64,000 bases of DNA from positions 124,001 through 188,000 of the forward strand of contig JAUSBY010000005.1 in the NCBI GenBank assembly GCA_030651765.1, given 5' to 3'. Below, piece by piece: positions 1,810 through 24,493 of the stretch. The position numbers and the translations under genes are program-made. Numbering within the stretch: the first letter of the stretch is position 1; each line of letters begins with the position of its first letter. The notes beneath the pieces are model-generated. The model saw nothing but the letters and a program-made list of their open reading frames with translations. It was not told the origin of the DNA and ran no database searches. The DNA comes from Coriobacteriia bacterium. GTDB taxonomy: Bacteria > Actinomycetota > Coriobacteriia > Anaerosomatales > Anaerosomataceae.

Positions 1810-2158
1810 GGGAGCGGGCCGGGCGGCCGCGCGGGTCTCTTGTTAGACCCGTGAGGAAAGTCCGGACTCCACAGGGCAGGGTGCCTGCTAACGGCAGGGC
1901 GGCGCGAGCCGACGGAAAGTGCCACAGAAAAGAAGACTCCGGATCTACGGGTCCGGAAAAGCTGAAACGGTGCGGTAAGAGCGCACCAGCGTCACGGTGA
2001 CGTGGCGGCTTGGCAAACCCCACCCGGAGCAAGGGCGAATAGGAGCGATCAAGGCCGGCCCGGCCGACGCTCGGGTTAGCCCGCGAGAGGCCGACGGCGA
2101 CGTCGGTCCCAGATAGATGGTCGTCCACGACAGAATCCGGCTTACAGGCCCGCTCCCA
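1810..2158 (+). ncRNA. rnpB: RNase P RNA (bacterial type A)
   Basis: Catalytic RNA that removes tRNA 5' leaders. The universal 5' block GAGGAAAGTCCGGACTCCAC followed by CAGGGCAGG and the 3' block ACAGAATCCGGCTTACAG are both present. The 11-base 5' end GGGAGCGGGCC (1810-1820) is perfectly complementary to GGCCCGCTCCC (2147-2157), the P1 helix, which fixes both ends. About 349 nt long, within the usual range. It ends about 20 bases before the stop of the convergent chelatase-like gene. Confidence 0.95.
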
Positions 2159-2176
2159 CTACCTCGCAGCGAACGA

Positions 2177-13218: not shown

Positions 13219-15225
13219 CTACTGCATGCCGAGCAGAGGAAGCACTCGAGCGACGATACCGCCGGCCATGAGCGCCAGCACGACGCTTGCGCCCACGACC
13301 GCAAGCGCCCGGGATGGTCCGTGCCGCTTCCAGAACACCGCCACCGACGAGATGCATGGCAGCGCGATCGCGTTCACGAGCGCGTATACCACGATCGACG
13401 AGGGGCTCATGAGGTCCGTCAACCCGGCGCCTGCGAAGCTTGCTGTAGCCACGGCAAGCGCGACGAGCAGTTGAAGTGAAAGCTCCTTGCGCAACATCCC
13501 GACGATGAGCGTCAGCCCTGCGACTGCGGGCAGACCCAGCCACTCCTCGACCACGGGAGCAAGCGGGGCGCTCAGGTAGACGAGCCAGCCGCTCTCGTAC
13601 AGGCCGCCCAACACGAGGCTGCCCACGATCACGATGGGCGTGGCGATGAACAGGAACTCCCGGAACTGGTCCCACGCCTTGCCCGCGACCCGGGCCAGAG
13701 ACGGCCGCCTGAACGGGAACATCTCCATGACGAGGCCGCGGGAGCGCCCTGGGAGCACTCTTTGGAGCGTGAGTCCTATCGCAAGCCACTGCGCGAACAC
13801 GATCCCCATGACGAGCGCCGCGGGCTGCCATCCGACGTAGTGTCCGACCGCGCCGAGGATGACCGCCGTCCGGGCGCTACACGGGATGAACAGGACGAGG
13901 GTCGATGCGATGAGACGCTCGCGCTTCGTCGGCAGGTCCTGGGCCGCCACGAGCGCGGGGACGTTGCAGCCGGCGGCCGCCACCAGTGGCACGACGGCTC
14001 TGCCATGGAGCCCGAGCCGGTGCATCGCGCGATCGGTGAGGAACGCGAGCGAGTTGAGATACCCCGTGTCTTCCAGCAAGCCGAGCAGGAAGTAGAACGT
14101 GAGGATGTACGGCAGTCCGATGGCAAGGGAGGCCTCGATCCCCGCGTCGAAGCCCCAGAGGAGGACCCTGCTGGTGATCCCATCACCCACGAGCGACGTG
14201 ATCACACTCGTGATGCCCGGCGATGCGAACGTCTCCCACAGACTGGAGAACGCTCCTGCCAGGAACTCACCGACGAAGAAGAGGAACCCGAAGATCCCCA
14301 CTGCCACCAAGACGACCAGCGGCACTCCCGTCCAGGGCCACGTCGTGAGCGACCACAGATCTTTCGGGAGGCGGCCGGAAGGCTCCTGGCGTGTGACGGC
14401 CGCCTGCCCGGCGGTACCGGCGAGGCCGTGCCGCTCGCGCGCGAGACGCGTCGCAGCACTCTCACCGTAGTGCTCGGCTATGGCCGACCGGACATCGGCT
14501 GCCGTCTGCCTGACGTGTTCGGACAGCGAGTCGGCCACCTCGCGCCCTGGATCGAGGAGCTCGAGTGCGGTCGCCCTGGCGCTGAGTCCGCCGGGCAGGC
14601 ACGGCTCTGCGGCGCACGCCGTGATGAGGGGTGCGATGAAGCCCTCGAAGTCCGGGCCGTAGTGGATCGATGCGGGCGAGTCTGCCGCGGCCTCTCGTCG
14701 CGCAGCGACGACGACATCGGCCACCCCGATCCCGCGCGTGGCCACGGTCTCGACCGCCGGGACGCCGAACTGCCTGGTCAGCGCTGCCGTGTCGACTGCG
14801 ATGCCCGTGCGCCTGGCTTCGTCGGCCAGGTTGACGGCGAGGACCACGCGGAATCCCAGGTCGATGATCTCCAGTGCGAGGTAGAGTGTCCGGCCGAGGT
14901 TCATAGGATCGACCACTACGACGACGACATCGGGCGCTAGATCGGTCAGTGCGCGCCGGGCGATGCGCTCCTCTTCGGACTGACCGCCGAGGCCGTACGA
15001 ACCGGGCAGATCGATCACGCCGACGATCCCGTCCGGGGTGCGGGCCGACGCCACCGAGACCTCGCGCGTCGTTCCGGGATAGTGCGCCGTGGATACGCCG
15101 AGACCGGTCAGTGTGTTGAACAGCGTCGACTTGCCGACGTTGGGATTTCCCGCGAGCGCGATGACAAGATCGCCCTCAGGGCGCGCGATCGGTGCGGCGG
15201 TAGGTCCGTCACACGAACGGCTCAC
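13219..15225 (-). CDS. feoB: Ferrous iron transporter FeoB
   Basis: 668-residue inner-membrane Fe(II) permease. The N-terminal G domain has GNPNVGKST (about 26-34), the switch region HYPGTT, DLPGSYGL and the NLAD nucleotide-specificity motif. A linker follows, then roughly 8-10 hydrophobic segments from about 270 with the two Gate repeats (conserved CNVPAL and CISSV cysteines). It starts at GTG 15225, overlapping the stop of the regulator gene as GTGA, so the pair is translationally coupled. No separate feoA exists; a FeoA-like domain is fused to the upstream regulator. Confidence 0.93.
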   Translation of the reverse strand: MSRSCDGPTAAPIARPEGDLVIALAGNPNVGKSTLFNTLTGLGVSTAHYPGTTREVSVASARTPDGIVGVIDLPGSYGLGGQSEEERIARRALTDLAPDVVVVVVDPMNLGRTLYLALEIIDLGFRVVLAVNLADEARRTGIAVDTAALTRQFGVPAVETVATRGIGVADVVVAARREAAADSPASIHYGPDFEGFIAPLITACAAEPCLPGGLSARATALELLDPGREVADSLSEHVRQTAADVRSAIAEHYGESAATRLARERHGLAGTAGQAAVTRQEPSGRLPKDLWSLTTWPWTGVPLVVLVAVGIFGFLFFVGEFLAGAFSSLWETFASPGITSVITSLVGDGITSRVLLWGFDAGIEASLAIGLPYILTFYFLLGLLEDTGYLNSLAFLTDRAMHRLGLHGRAVVPLVAAAGCNVPALVAAQDLPTKRERLIASTLVLFIPCSARTAVILGAVGHYVGWQPAALVMGIVFAQWLAIGLTLQRVLPGRSRGLVMEMFPFRRPSLARVAGKAWDQFREFLFIATPIVIVGSLVLGGLYESGWLVYLSAPLAPVVEEWLGLPAVAGLTLIVGMLRKELSLQLLVALAVATASFAGAGLTDLMSPSSIVVYALVNAIALPCISSVAVFWKRHGPSRALAVVGASVVLALMAGGIVARVLPLLGMQ

Positions 15226-15908
15226 GTGCGGCTCCCGCGCTTGCGGCGCCGGGTGGGCTGTGTGGATTGGCTGACCACGATCTTCTCGGCCACATCACGC
15301 CCGAGCGCATAGCGCGCGTCACCGACCTCGACGAGAAGCGGACCCTTGAACGGCGCGACATCGCAGACGCGGACCGCCGTGCCGGGGAACATGCCGAGTG
15401 ACGCGAGATACGACAGGAGCTCGCCGTCCTCGTCCTCAACGCGCACGATCTCGACCGTGGCGCCGGAGCCGCTCTCACACAGCGGGGCGCCCTCCTGTGC
15501 GGCGACGGTACCGTCGGCTCGCGGTATCGGGTGACCGTGCGGACACACGGCGGGGTTCTCGAGGAACGTCTCCAGTGCCTCCTGGACCCTCGGGGAGAGC
15601 GCATGCTCGAGCTGGCACGCCTCGTCATGCACCTCATCCCACGGCAGCCCGAGGGCATCGACCAAGAAGCGCTCGGCCAGGCGGTGCCTGCGGACGATGT
15701 CGAGCGCGCCCTGGCGGCCGTCGGGTGTGAGGGTCACACCGCCATCGGGGCGCTCAATGAGTCCGGCAGCCTTGAGCCTCCCGAGTGTTGCGGTGACGGT
15801 CGGTGCGGACACGCCAAGTGCTTCGGCGAGATGACCCGGGCGTACTTCTCCCCGCTCGGCGGCCTTGTAGATCGCCTCAAGATACTCCTCGAGTGTGGCG
15901 CTCGGCAT
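15222..15908 (-). CDS. DtxR/IdeR-family metal-dependent repressor with FeoA-like domain
   Basis: 228 residues. The N-terminal winged helix (EEYLEAIYKAAERGEV to LTPDGRQ, about 7-70) is the DtxR DNA-binding fold. The dimerisation and metal-binding region holds EVHDEACQLEHALS and CPHGHPIPR, with the usual Glu, Cys and His ligands. The last 75 residues form an SH3/FeoA-like domain (LASLGMFPGTAVRVCDVAPF). It probably senses Fe(II) or Mn(II) and represses itself and feoB. GGAGGG precedes ATG 15908. A TGGACG/TATACT promoter with 17-base spacing can be read upstream on the minus strand, but no clear DtxR box is recognised. Confidence 0.9.
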   Translation of the reverse strand: MPSATLEEYLEAIYKAAERGEVRPGHLAEALGVSAPTVTATLGRLKAAGLIERPDGGVTLTPDGRQGALDIVRRHRLAERFLVDALGLPWDEVHDEACQLEHALSPRVQEALETFLENPAVCPHGHPIPRADGTVAAQEGAPLCESGSGATVEIVRVEDEDGELLSYLASLGMFPGTAVRVCDVAPFKGPLLVEVGDARYALGRDVAEKIVVSQSTQPTRRRKRGSRT

Positions 15909-16118
15909 AGTCCCTCCAGGCGGTTGTCACGAGCACGAACATACACCGTGAGTATAGGTCCGGGCACGGAGTTCGTCCACGCTAAACGTGCCGAGGACGC
16001 TCTCTCCCCCGCCACCGCGACGTACGGGACCGGAGGAGCCGTCTGTCGGTAGATGCGCGCCGTTCGGCGCTGTGAAGCTACCGTCCAGCTAGAAGCTCGT
16101 TAATCGCGCAAATGCCCC

Positions 16119-16147
16119 TTGACCCTTTCAGGGGCCTCGCGTACAGT
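16119..16147 (+). promoter_or_regulatory. Sigma-70 type promoter of a structured RNA
   Basis: TTGACC (16119-16124), 17-base spacer, TACAGT (16142-16147) on the plus strand, where no plus-strand protein gene follows. The expected start at about 16153-16155 coincides with the first base of the RNA closing stem. Confidence 0.7.
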
Positions 16148-16152
16148 GGGGT

Positions 16153-16326
16153 TGTCCCGAGAAGTCGGACCGGGCGGAACCTGAAAGCCAGCGTACCAGT
16201 AGCTGCTCGATGGGGCTCCCCGCAGATCGGTTCAGCGCAAGCCGTCCGTGACGCGAGGTTCTTCAAAGAGTAAGAAACGGGAAGTTGGGGACTACGGAAT
16301 CCCGCAGGTGAGGTTTCTCGGGACAC
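16153..16326 (+). ncRNA. Candidate 6S RNA (structured 174-nt trans-acting RNA)
   Basis: TGTCCCGAGAA (16153-16163) pairs perfectly with TTCTCGGGACA (16315-16325), closing a long rod-like RNA. An inner TTCTT/AAGAA pairing and a GGGG/CCCC hairpin near the middle are also visible. The length of about 175 nt, paired ends, own promoter and lack of any coding capacity fit 6S RNA, which binds the sigma-70 holoenzyme. The assignment rests on architecture only; no family consensus was matched. The rest of the 470-base gap between the DtxR gene and queD shows nothing else. Confidence 0.5.
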
Positions 16327-16380
16327 TTCTATTCCCGGCCGGATGTGCGTGCCGCCGAGACTCCCCCAGAGGCTTCGCGA

Positions 16381-16752
16381 CTACTCGGCGCCCCGGTACG
16401 TGATCCGCGCCACCGGAGACTCCCACACCGACACCTCGACCACCGACACGGCATCTCCCACGCGCGCGGCGATCGCCTCGTAGATGTAGCGAGAGAGGTT
16501 CTCGGCGGTGGGGTTCTCGGAGTCGAACGGCGGGACGTCGTTCAGGTATCCGTGATCGAGCGGCTCGAGTACCCGGTCCAGGTCGTCTTTGAGCGTCTTG
16601 AAGTCGTAGACGATACCGATCGTGTCGAGAACCGCCCCGCGAACGATGACTTCGACGTCCCACGTGTGTCCGTGAAGGTTCCGACACTCGCCGGGATAGC
16701 CGTGCAGTGCGTGGGCTGCATCGAAGTGGCCCCGGATCATGAGATCGTACAT
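16381..16752 (-). CDS. queD: 6-carboxy-tetrahydropterin synthase / 6-pyruvoyl-tetrahydropterin synthase family
   Basis: 123 residues, the right size for QueD. Zinc ligands appear in HFDAAHAL and in CRNLHGHTWDVEV, where the Cys is the catalytic residue typical of QueD. DFKTLKDDL, DHGYLND and PTAENLSRYI are standard family motifs. It converts dihydroneopterin triphosphate to 6-carboxy-tetrahydropterin in queuosine and deazapurine synthesis. No queC, queE or queF is nearby. Start ATG 16752 is 17 bases after the RNase H stop, so it is likely the last gene of that operon. Confidence 0.92.
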   Translation of the reverse strand: MYDLMIRGHFDAAHALHGYPGECRNLHGHTWDVEVIVRGAVLDTIGIVYDFKTLKDDLDRVLEPLDHGYLNDVPPFDSENPTAENLSRYIYEAIAARVGDAVSVVEVSVWESPVARITYRGAE

Positions 16753-16769: not shown

Positions 16770-17228
16770 TCAGAACAGCGTCGTCGGCGCGCCACACGGC
16801 GGTTCCGGTGCGTCTCCTACCGTCACGGTCCGGTCCATCGCCTCGTTGGCCAGCGCGTCCGCCGCTGCGTTGGCGGCGCGGGGCACGTGGACGAATGTGA
16901 CACTCCCAAGAGCACGCTGCGCCGCCTGGGCCTCGATGAACAGCGGCTTGAGGCCCTCGTTCTTCACGCGGTACTCGCCGCGCAGCTGCTTCACGACCAG
17001 TTCGCTGTCGGCTCTGACCTCGAGCGTACGGGCCCCAAGTGCTCGCGCCGCGCGCATGCCCCAGATCAGCGCCAGGTACTCGGCGACGTTGTTGGTGACC
17101 ACGCCGAGGTACGCGCCGCCGCTGCATGCGATCTGACCGTCGGGAGACCGCACGACGATTCCGGCGCCGCCCGGACCGGGGTTGCCTCTCGCACCGCCAT
17201 CGCTGTTGACGACCCAGGTGTCGCTCAC
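16770..17228 (-). CDS. Ribonuclease HI family protein
   Basis: 152 residues from GTG 17228, which overlaps the upstream stop as GTGA. The four catalytic acids are present: Asp in VNSDGGARGNPG, Glu in NNVAEYLAL, Asp in EVRADSELVV and Asp in AAADALANEAM. It lacks the basic protrusion of E. coli RNase HI, as do the shorter actinobacterial and archaeal type I enzymes. It removes RNA from RNA-DNA hybrids. The neighbouring zinc-ribbon gene is a frequent partner of such rnhA genes. Confidence 0.9.
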   Translation of the reverse strand: MSDTWVVNSDGGARGNPGPGGAGIVVRSPDGQIACSGGAYLGVVTNNVAEYLALIWGMRAARALGARTLEVRADSELVVKQLRGEYRVKNEGLKPLFIEAQAAQRALGSVTFVHVPRAANAAADALANEAMDRTVTVGDAPEPPCGAPTTLF

Positions 17229-17950
17229 GATCGGCTCGCGGCGCTCACGACCAGGATTCGACGGCAGTTGGGGCACTCGCCGACTTCCGGGCCTGCCGCC
17301 ACGCGCTGCGCCTCCCCCGCGGGCAGCTGCGTCCGGCACGCCGAGCACATCCCGTCGGTGAACTCGCCTACCGCGATCCCGTGCTTCGCAGTGCGGACCG
17401 ACTCGTAGCGCGCGGCTGTTGGAGCCTCGAGCCTGCCGACGAGCAGTGCCCGCTCGGCACGCATTCGCTCCAGGTCTCGCTGGAGTTCGCCGCCCCTGGT
17501 CTTGAACCGCTCGATCAGCCCGGCCTCCTTGGCCCTGCCGTCGGCCAGCGCGGCCTCGACCCTGGCGCGCTGGGTCTGGCCGGCCTCGGCCTTCTCCATG
17601 TAGCCGAGGGCCTCGCACTCGAGGGTCTCCTTGCGCCGCCCGAGCGCCGCGATCTCCTTCGCCAGGTTCTGGAGCTCTTTGGGATTGGTCACAGCCCCCG
17701 AGAGGATCTTCGCCTGCTCGGCATCCATCTTCTCCTGCACGGAGGTGGCGTCGTCTTGCGCACGCGAAACGAGGGCCTCGGCCTTGCGGCAGTATGCGTC
17801 GGCCTTGTCGAGCGCGGTCTCGATCTCCTGGAGACGATGGCGCAGTTGGAGGATAGCGTGCTTCTCGGGCAGTTCGTCCAGAGCCTTCTCGGCTCGGGCG
17901 ATCGCCAGATCGTGCTGGCCGAGCGCGATCAGGATCTCACCTTCGGTCAT
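17225..17950 (-). CDS. Coiled-coil zinc-ribbon protein (DUF164/C4-type family)
   Basis: 241 residues. About residues 1-180 are a long alpha-helical coiled coil rich in Glu, Ala, Arg and Leu. A C-terminal zinc ribbon has CSACRTQLPA and CPNCRRI, a CxxC pair repeated. Start ATG 17950 overlaps the upstream stop as ATGA. The family is widespread next to rnh and Nif3-like genes; its molecular role is not established. No membrane segment is visible. Confidence 0.82.
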   Translation of the reverse strand: MTEGEILIALGQHDLAIARAEKALDELPEKHAILQLRHRLQEIETALDKADAYCRKAEALVSRAQDDATSVQEKMDAEQAKILSGAVTNPKELQNLAKEIAALGRRKETLECEALGYMEKAEAGQTQRARVEAALADGRAKEAGLIERFKTRGGELQRDLERMRAERALLVGRLEAPTAARYESVRTAKHGIAVGEFTDGMCSACRTQLPAGEAQRVAAGPEVGECPNCRRILVVSAASRS

Positions 17951-19053
17951 CGGCCATCCTCCATCGTCCACCACCCGGGCCGGGTGGATTCGCGTGACAC
18001 GTTCACTCCCGGCGCTGCCTCGGAGACGGCACGGGCAAGTACGTCGACCAGGGGCCACTCGGTCATGTCGTGCCCGGCCTCTATGACGGCCAGCCCGGCG
18101 GCCGTAGCGCCCAGTGCGTCATGATAGCGCACCTCCCCCGCGACCAGGACATCGGCCACAGACGCTGCGCGATCGATAAGCGATCCGGCCGAGCCGTTGG
18201 CCACCGCGATGCGCGATGCCGGACGGTTGCGATCTCCCCAGACGCGCACACTCACGCCGAGCGTGCGGGCGACGTGGGCTGCGAGGTCGCTGACCGTCGC
18301 GTCGTCGCGCCACGTGCACACGCGTCCGAGCCGGGCGGTACCTCGGGCGCGAACGCCGTCGACTGCCACGATGACCGGTTCCTCGTACGGATGCGCCACT
18401 CGGGCGGCCTCCAGAACAGCCGCAGCGGATGCCCGGGGAGCGACCATCTCGATGCGCACCTCGGGTACGCCATCGGATGAGGCCGGAACAGTCGGACTGG
18501 CAGCAGCATCCGGCGTGAAGTACCCGGCACCGTCGCACAGATACGCGCATCCGGCGTACGGACCGAGGCGGCCGGCACCGGCCGAGGCCATCGCCTCGCG
18601 AAGGGTGTCCACGGCGGCGGCCGGCGCATAGGTCACGACGAACGAGACGTCCTCAGTGCCCGCCTCGAGCGGCTCGACCACGTCGAGACCGAGCAGGATC
18701 GAGAGGGCTTGCGCGCCCTCGGGTGAGCGATCGAGGTTCGTATGAAGCGCGATGACGGCTACGCCGAGCCGGAGCGCGGCTTCGAGGGTGCCGGCGGGGC
18801 CGGAACCGGCCCGGACGCTTCCCGGCATGTCGAGGAAGGGCGGGTGGTGCGTAGCGAGTACGTTGGCTCCCGCGTCCCGCGCGCGCGCGACCGCCTCGGC
18901 GGTGGCGTCGAGCGTCACGAGCACGCCGCGGACGGGCGAATCAGCGTCACCGACTATCAGCCCTACCCGATCCCACGGCTCGGCCGTTGCGGCCGGGAAC
19001 CGCCGCTCGAGAGCGGCGACGAGCGCGCCGACGGTGATCGCGTCAGAGGGCAT
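17947..19053 (-). CDS. Nif3-like dinuclear metal-center protein
   Basis: 368 residues from ATG 19053; 50 residues of low-quality frame upstream were excluded. NIF3 signatures are WDRVGLIVGD, ATHHPPFLD and HTNLDRSPEG at the N-terminus, and GEVRYHDALGATAAGLAVIEAGHDMTE split by an inserted PII-like middle domain (about 130-240, ending AHPYEEPVI). This YqfO/YbgI type binds two metal ions. It is often annotated as GTP cyclohydrolase I type 2, which is not secure. Its start overlaps the end of the PHP phosphatase gene by 11 bases. Confidence 0.88.
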   Translation of the reverse strand: MPSDAITVGALVAALERRFPAATAEPWDRVGLIVGDADSPVRGVLVTLDATAEAVARARDAGANVLATHHPPFLDMPGSVRAGSGPAGTLEAALRLGVAVIALHTNLDRSPEGAQALSILLGLDVVEPLEAGTEDVSFVVTYAPAAAVDTLREAMASAGAGRLGPYAGCAYLCDGAGYFTPDAAASPTVPASSDGVPEVRIEMVAPRASAAAVLEAARVAHPYEEPVIVAVDGVRARGTARLGRVCTWRDDATVSDLAAHVARTLGVSVRVWGDRNRPASRIAVANGSAGSLIDRAASVADVLVAGEVRYHDALGATAAGLAVIEAGHDMTEWPLVDVLARAVSEAAPGVNVSRESTRPGWWTMEDGR

Positions 19054-19864
19054 CGAGCGCCACCTCCTCGGCCCGACGTTGTCTGAACACGACGAGGGAA
19101 CGATACCCCGCGGCGTCGAGTGCCTCACGCGCCTCGCGCCAGCCCGCGCCGACCTCGCCGGGAGCGTGCGCGTCCGAGCCGACGGTGACCGGAACGCCGG
19201 CACGGTAGAGCTCTTTCAGGAACTCGAGTGCGGGGTACAGCTCGGCGCAGGGCTTGCGCAGACCCGCCGTGTTGACCTCGACGGCAAGCCCGGTCTCGGC
19301 GATGGCGGCAGCGGTGGACCGGTACAGACCGCCGAGAGGAGCATCCGGCACGTGCCGGAACTTCTTGATGAGATCGACGTGTGCGACGACATCCGCACAA
19401 CCGGTCCTGGCAGCGGTCGCCAGATCGGCGAAGTAGCGCTCCCAGAGCTCCGCGATCGACCAGTCGGCGTACGTGGCCGTGCGCTCGGGGTCGTCGAACG
19501 CCCAGTCGTCTATGAGATGGATCGAGCCCAAGACCACATCGAACGGATACCGCGCGAGGATCTCACGGGCGTGGTCTACAGCGACCGGTACGAGGTCGGC
19601 TTCGATGCCGAGGAGGACCTCGACGCCCATATCAGCCGCGGCGGCCCGGACCTCGAGCACCTCGGCGACGTAGAGGTCGAGCTCGTCGGCGGGCATCGCG
19701 TAACCGGCCGCGCCCGGGACGGCCGCGATCAGCGCCGGGGCGAGCGGCAGGTGTTCGGTGAAGGCCAGTACCCGGATACCGGCCGATGCCGCGGCCGCAA
19801 CATACTCGGCGACGTCACCCTCAGCGTGTCGGCAGCGCCAGGTATGGACGTGCAGGTCGATCAC
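19043..19864 (-). CDS. PHP-family histidinol-phosphatase-like hydrolase
   Basis: 273 residues. PHP metal-ligand motifs are DLHVHTWRCRHAEG at the start, FTEHLPLAP, GIEADL, LGSIHLIDDW, AHVDLIKKF and GSDAHAPGEVG. This matches HisK/HisJ-type histidinol phosphatases of histidine biosynthesis, but hisC is 15 kb away and other his genes are absent, so the substrate is uncertain. GTG 19864 overlaps the upstream stop as GTGA. Confidence 0.85.
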   Translation of the reverse strand: MIDLHVHTWRCRHAEGDVAEYVAAAASAGIRVLAFTEHLPLAPALIAAVPGAAGYAMPADELDLYVAEVLEVRAAAADMGVEVLLGIEADLVPVAVDHAREILARYPFDVVLGSIHLIDDWAFDDPERTATYADWSIAELWERYFADLATAARTGCADVVAHVDLIKKFRHVPDAPLGGLYRSTAAAIAETGLAVEVNTAGLRKPCAELYPALEFLKELYRAGVPVTVGSDAHAPGEVGAGWREAREALDAAGYRSLVVFRQRRAEEVALDAL

Positions 19865-24354: not shown

Positions 24355-24365
24355 GAACAGAACCT

Positions 24366-24477
24366 TCCTTCTCCCATCCAGACTGTCACTGTCGGCTCCG
24401 GGATCTCACCGGATCGGCCCCTCTCGGGGTTCGCGGGCTGTCACCGCCGGTGGGGAATCGCACCCCGCCCTGAAGAA
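24366..24477 (-). promoter_or_regulatory. FMN riboswitch (RFN element)
   Basis: The conserved RFN blocks occur in order on the minus strand: GGGCGGGGTGCGATTCCCC, ACCGGCGGT, AGCCCGCGA, CCGGTGAGATCCCGG and GGATGGGAGAAGG. The last block abuts the ribD ribosome site, suggesting translational control. The upstream end lies only 16 bases from the rpe stop. Confidence 0.96.
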
Positions 24478-24493
24478 AGTCGCAGACGTAAGT

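Follow-up and report, generated by a model that had tools for sequence, protein, structure and literature searches.

A predicted family of rod-shaped structured RNAs, very probably distinct from 6S RNA, in Anaerosomatales and other Actinomycetota

In the window, by which we mean the whole 64,000-nucleotide stretch of DNA analysed, the plus strand carries at 16153–16326 a 174-nt sequence (hereafter the rod RNA) that lies between two minus-strand genes. On one side is a divergent gene for a DtxR-type iron-dependent regulator with a FeoA domain (15222–15908), and on the other the convergent queD, encoding 6-pyruvoyl tetrahydropterin synthase (16381–16752), beyond which Pfam matches place rnhA, a CT398-like Zn-ribbon protein, NIF3, and PHP (16770–19864); the Zn-ribbon protein (17225–18058, minus strand) is of the coiled-coil CT398/HP0958 type, with PF24481 and PF02591. 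The promoter read from the sequence (16119–16147, plus strand) comprises a −35 hexamer TTGACC (16119–16124), a 17-base spacer, and a −10 hexamer TACAGT (16142–16147), just as in the initial annotation, which had also described the locus as free of any open reading frame (ORF) and of an adjacent plus-strand gene; both statements hold, as no plus-strand ORF of 60 or more amino acids occurs inside 16153–16326 and both neighbours are read from the minus strand. Ahead of the −35 hexamer is a UP-element-like, A/T-containing stretch, CGTTAATCGCGCAAAT (16098–16113, plus strand), for which the family consensus from an upstream comparison of 101 copies is CATTTC..GAAAA. Farther upstream, three elements of the form (G/A)CCGT(C/T)(C/T)... 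(16038–16090, plus strand) start at 16038, 16059, and 16080, a spacing of exactly 21 bp, and this phasing makes them putative activator-like sites. An Rfam scan of the window gave nothing at the rod RNA locus and matched, elsewhere, a class A bacterial RNase P RNA (1811–2160, plus strand, 301.7 bits) and an FMN riboswitch (24362–24481, minus strand, 111.4 bits).

The gene body (16153–16326, plus strand, model positions 1–172) was delimited by folding, by the covariance models R1–R3, and by comparison with the paralogue on contig C7 of the same genome. It folds into a single long rod (−69.1 kcal/mol, z −1.8) with an end stem of 11 perfect base pairs running inwards from 16153 and 16325 (14 bp when G–U pairs are counted), so that the end-to-end stem at the gene start and the 174-nt rod first proposed by inspection are both reproduced. 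The layout consists of a closing arm (positions 1–40), whose 14-bp closing helix P1 pairs 16153–16166 with 16312–16325, an invariant centre (positions 41–52 and approximately 117–131), and a variable terminal arm (~63 nt) capped by a GNRA tetraloop, GCAA (16237–16240), which is closed by GC/GC according to the alignments and the consensus structure. The 5′ strand of the conserved core, GUACCAGUAGCU (16193–16204), contains a nearly invariant UACCAG that is kept across classes, and the 3′ strand, GUAAGAAACGGGAA (16270–16283), contains GAAA.GG.AA among its invariant alignment columns; over the family the core reads UACCAG...GC / GAAA.GGGAA, its 3′ side being also written G...GAAA.GG.AA. In the consensus, small loops of 11 and about 14 nt follow one another through the centre, with CC/GG pairs that never vary, and because of this invariance the core pairs speak neither for nor against an open centre as opposed to a stacked motif. 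A conserved pyrimidine/U-rich 3′ tail, CTTCTATTCC (16326–16335, plus strand), follows, its family form being CUCUAUUC or CUCUUUGUC; many other copies have a GC hairpin 3′ of the RNA, and the window copy has no clear terminator. The copies compared range in length from 156 to 208 nt. Four divergent members (L212, L213, L219, and L247), 197–208 nt long, are enlarged on the 3′ side of the centre by one or two additional hairpins, and at six loci (L273, L276, L277, L278, L287, and L270), representing several other-class families, a hairpin of the CCCCCAUGGUUAAUAGAGGCACGGGUCUCGAGAACCCACUGGGGG type with a conserved interior and without an Rfam match lies just 3′ of the RNA. The reading of the locus as a small-protein gene was rejected on the grounds that the longest ORF per copy has a median of 18 amino acids and that lengths fall evenly into the three residue classes modulo 3.

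Seen alone, the closing stem is no rarer than chance, the window containing 6 perfect 11-bp inverted repeats of such span versus 3.8 ± 2.6 in Markov shuffles; the significance of the rod RNA comes instead from comparison across genomes. In the first alignment, of 48 copies and not fitted to any model, double changes occur in 13 of the 38 pairs of the consensus rod. This alignment with its 38-pair consensus gave the model R1, a set of 101 copies gave R2, and R3 followed. In the 101-copy alignment, which leans towards the structure because it was fitted to the model, 95.0% of pair cells are standard versus 85.3% after shuffling, and the covariation is 0.376 versus 0.193 ± 0.005, a value reached in 0 of 500 shuffles, with slid controls at 0.04–0.11. 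An alignment of 89 diverse copies and 47 pairs, leaning the same way for the same reason, gives 0.459 versus 0.205 ± 0.005 (0 of 500 shuffles; slid controls at most 0.11), and in these 89 copies P1 has 98.1% of its cells paired and both-side changes in 7 of its 14 pairs.

A DNA search located a second copy, 70% identical, in the same genome on contig C7. Within the family of this organism, Anaerosomataceae, 26 of 27 genomes carry the rod RNA, including all 22 of good quality, and R1 matched 63 of the 298 genomes of the class, every one belonging to the order Anaerosomatales/OPB41 (63 of 69), with none among 229 other Coriobacteriia genomes. R2 adds at least one more genome of the order, in which the RNA is split at contig ends; for the order the count is at least 63 of 69. 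One copy was found in 29 genomes, two in 30, and three in 4. Homologues were further detected by R2 in 23 sampled genomes of other Actinomycetota classes (E 1e-21 to 1e-9), to which R3 adds two (23–25 genomes), covering at least ten other families and GC contents down to 41%; these copies retain the closing stem by compensatory change, together with the core GUACCAGUAGC / GAAANGG.AA, and the core remains nearly invariant among copies with 41–69% GC. In nearly all genomes of the order the rod RNA occupies the same ancestral locus, between divergent dtxR and convergent queD–rnhA–ZnR–NIF3, and in the family of this organism and some others a second copy lies downstream of gatB. In other classes it is again convergent with (queD–)rnhA–ZnR–NIF3, the Zn-ribbon gene staying beside it across classes. 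Since this synteny recurs across the order and the classes, the rod RNA has, as judged from gene order, been inherited vertically. An origin in mobile or viral elements was discarded, the one match in a viral collection not being confirmed by the covariance model, and pattern matches in other phyla, scoring at most 11.8 bits with R2, were set aside as chance. In some other-class genomes there are extra, more diverged copies, at L270 3429–3584 (genome G473) and on contigs C14 and C2 of genome G521, one of them with a degenerate core (AAACCACGAGC).

The locus had been annotated initially as a candidate 6S RNA; on such a reading it would be an orthologue of ssrS/bsrA, with a large central bubble, and would act as a decoy for the polymerase holoenzyme. 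The general resemblance is real: the rod RNA shares with 6S RNA (RF00013) the length (160–200 nt class; here about 174 nt), the paired ends, the rod shape, and a stand-alone promoter, and its overall geometry is that of 6S from the same lineages, with a closing arm reaching position ~40 versus 41 in same-lineage 6S, a conserved centre, and a terminal arm of ~63 nt. The additional hairpins of the divergent members could also be cited in favour of a 6S identity, as they recall the hairpin on the 3′ side of the 6S central bubble. Unlike 6S RNA, however, the rod RNA has a fixed core whose sequence is unrelated. The initial annotation had made a large asymmetric central bubble its test; the consensus fold shows small loops and no such bubble, and in minimum-free-energy folds the largest internal loop is small in the rod RNA and in true 6S alike and does not separate the two. 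The 6S covariance-model search that had been suggested as a check gave no match at E<10 at the locus even under permissive filters, and the same RF00013 result was obtained for three members in all (the window region, L213, and L046). Moreover, a canonical 6S RNA exists elsewhere in the same genome (contig C6:140647–140819, minus strand; L003 1501–1673; 57.7 bits, E 6e-11), and separate canonical 6S genes are present in 26 of 27 genomes of the family, 60 of 69 of the order, and 22 of the 23 other-class genomes; searches of the 6S loci with R1 and R3 gave nothing above noise. The absent RF00013 match and the coexisting canonical 6S refute orthology, and while the outline of a stand-alone structured gene with its own promoter and 6S-like geometry stands, the assignment as 6S RNA does not and is in our estimate highly improbable. 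The comparative data indicate that the rod RNA almost certainly represents a real family distinct from 6S.

Comparison with other known RNAs gave no assignment either. Four rod RNA members searched against Rfam 15 yielded no relevant match at E<10, but just unrelated sub-threshold matches. In UACCAG / GGAAGC the rod RNA resembles bacterial SRP RNA, with which it also shares the rod shape and a GNRA-type loop; SRP RNA (RF00169), considered because of this sequence resemblance, was nevertheless rejected, as a separate RF00169 match above the cut-off is present in 12 of 12 tested genomes, including this one. The loop-to-core distance differs as well. The closest precedents in outline are two actinobacterial RNAs. 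Ms1, which binds core polymerase in Mycobacterium and Streptomyces (PMC9130861, PMC4191392), is likewise actinobacterial, stand-alone, structured, and 6S-like in outline, but is ~230–300 nt long, has a HAD hydrolase gene as its neighbour, and is found in lineages that lack 6S, none of which applies to the rod RNA; the neighbours of the rod RNA are dtxR and queD–rnhA–ZnR–NIF3, not the HAD hydrolase/oxidoreductase gene of Ms1. CoRP of Corynebacterium, found experimentally as a polymerase-bound RNA (PMC11077062), is similarly lineage-specific and actinobacterial, but is 516 nt long, lies between tRNA genes, and is confined to Corynebacterium. Both are set apart by their descriptions. In the open-access literature, which our search covered, we found no publication dealing with 6S or with structured noncoding RNAs that mentions Coriobacteriia. 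The rod RNA family itself is considered new, while its function may prove to be of a known kind.

Regarding function, the rod RNA is most likely a trans-acting, protein-binding RNA. The explanation that we consider best, and to which we give about even credence, is a stand-alone structured RNA gene of ~175–190 nt (16153 to ~16335, plus strand) of an undescribed family that acts in trans through protein binding, although the window copy has no clear terminator. According to the predicted mechanism, the RNA would be transcribed from its own strong promoter with the UP-like and phased sites, would end at the U-rich tail, and would be abundant in the cell; a protein would then be bound through the invariant centre, with no part for base pairing or for an effect in cis. 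The intergenic position beside dtxR might suggest a cis element, such as a riboswitch, an attenuator, or the UTR of an adjacent gene, but dtxR is divergent and queD convergent, leaving no same-strand gene downstream at the ancestral locus, so that the rod RNA is not a cis element there; the orientation of the genes rejects such a role for either dtxR or queD, and with a copy near gatB among different neighbours and with its own promoter and tail, this reading is scarcely credible. It is improbable, if less so, that the rod RNA is a regulatory sRNA acting on target mRNAs by base pairing through its U-rich tail or its loops. The tail (CUCUAUUC/CUCUUUGUC) shows conservation and probably stays single-stranded, but most of the conserved bases belong to helices and internal loops and the terminal arm varies; in keeping its structure from class to class, the rod RNA also differs from typical antisense sRNAs.

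As to the protein bound by such a trans-acting RNA, RNA polymerase would be the likeliest single partner, in a 6S- or Ms1-like fashion, because the geometry of the rod RNA overlays that of 6S; we infer both the protein binding and this partnership from shape and conservation only, and advance the latter tentatively. The rod RNA would accordingly be a separate polymerase-binding RNA, convergent or a much diverged 6S/Ms1-like molecule, acting beside 6S on core or an alternative holoenzyme, a possibility that we rate as short of probable. In its favour are, besides the geometry, the strong and apparently regulated promoter and the two rod RNA paralogues in many genomes; Bacillus subtilis likewise has two 6S paralogues, 6S-1 and 6S-2. 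Ms1 and CoRP provide precedents in Actinobacteria (PMC9130861, PMC11077062), and the family of the adjoining Zn-ribbon protein includes CT398, a binder of RpoN and core polymerase (PMC5947703). On the other hand, the consensus centre consists of small, sequence-fixed internal loops in place of an open bubble, and the genome already contains a canonical 6S; one type of abundant polymerase-binding RNA per species has been proposed by the authors of a RIP-seq study (PMC11077062). The next candidate would be a dedicated RNA–protein complex of which the rod RNA forms the core, with a non-polymerase protein such as the neighbouring CT398/HP0958-like Zn-ribbon protein. The invariant internal-loop core is typical of protein sites, and rnhA–ZnR is retained next to the rod RNA across classes; this linkage may, however, reflect mere vertical inheritance, the rnhA–ZnR–NIF3 cluster being far more widespread than the rod RNA; M. 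smegmatis, for one, has the Zn-ribbon protein (PMC5947703). The zinc ribbon of HP0958, which belongs to the same protein family, binds an RNA (PMC5947703). On balance we regard this complex as rather unlikely.

In a broader view, 6S has been reported missing from Actinobacteria apart from one Streptomyces candidate, and Ms1 and CoRP indicate that Actinobacteria evolve polymerase-binding RNAs (PMC9130861, PMC11077062). The canonical 6S matches coexisting here with a second 6S-shaped RNA differ from both the view of a missing 6S and that of one such RNA per species (PMC9130861, PMC11077062). We speculate, with considerable doubt, that the rod RNA is a hitherto unknown, ancient class of abundant, stand-alone RNA in early-branching Actinomycetota, with an invariant UACCAG/GAAA–GGGAA core that would bind the transcription apparatus or some other central complex, alongside 6S; if binding to the transcription apparatus is true, polymerase in these bacteria would be controlled by two abundant RNAs of different kinds. 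It is unusual for a new class of structured RNA to be so well conserved and also to be inherited vertically over a wide range and encoded by several gene copies with strong promoters, and a profile of this sort usually marks a central cellular function. As Anaerosomatales has cultured members (PMC9686372), the rod RNA is open to experimental test.

In the upstream regions of the family, TTGAC or TTGCG, followed after ~17 bases by TA...T, precedes nearly every copy, including those of other classes. The UP-like element upstream of the promoter, an A/T tract in the low-GC classes, and the U-rich tail at the other end are likewise present in nearly every copy. Before many copies, two or three (A/G)CCGTTC-RKC-R elements are spaced 21–22 bp apart; the motif at about −75, −96, and −117 is present at each position in roughly half of 100 copies. 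Arrays of these elements are concentrated at rod RNA genes, 88 of 113 array matches lying within 400 bp of a copy and several of the remaining 25 being likewise at rod RNA copies, in unmasked loci, and they may represent a dedicated activator site for these genes. Because of the promoter, the UP-like element, and the phased sites, the rod RNA is probably strongly expressed under an activator. A pair of the same phased elements was also seen at L248, near position 624 on the minus strand, ahead of an unrelated promoter-like site, possibly a second member of the same regulon.
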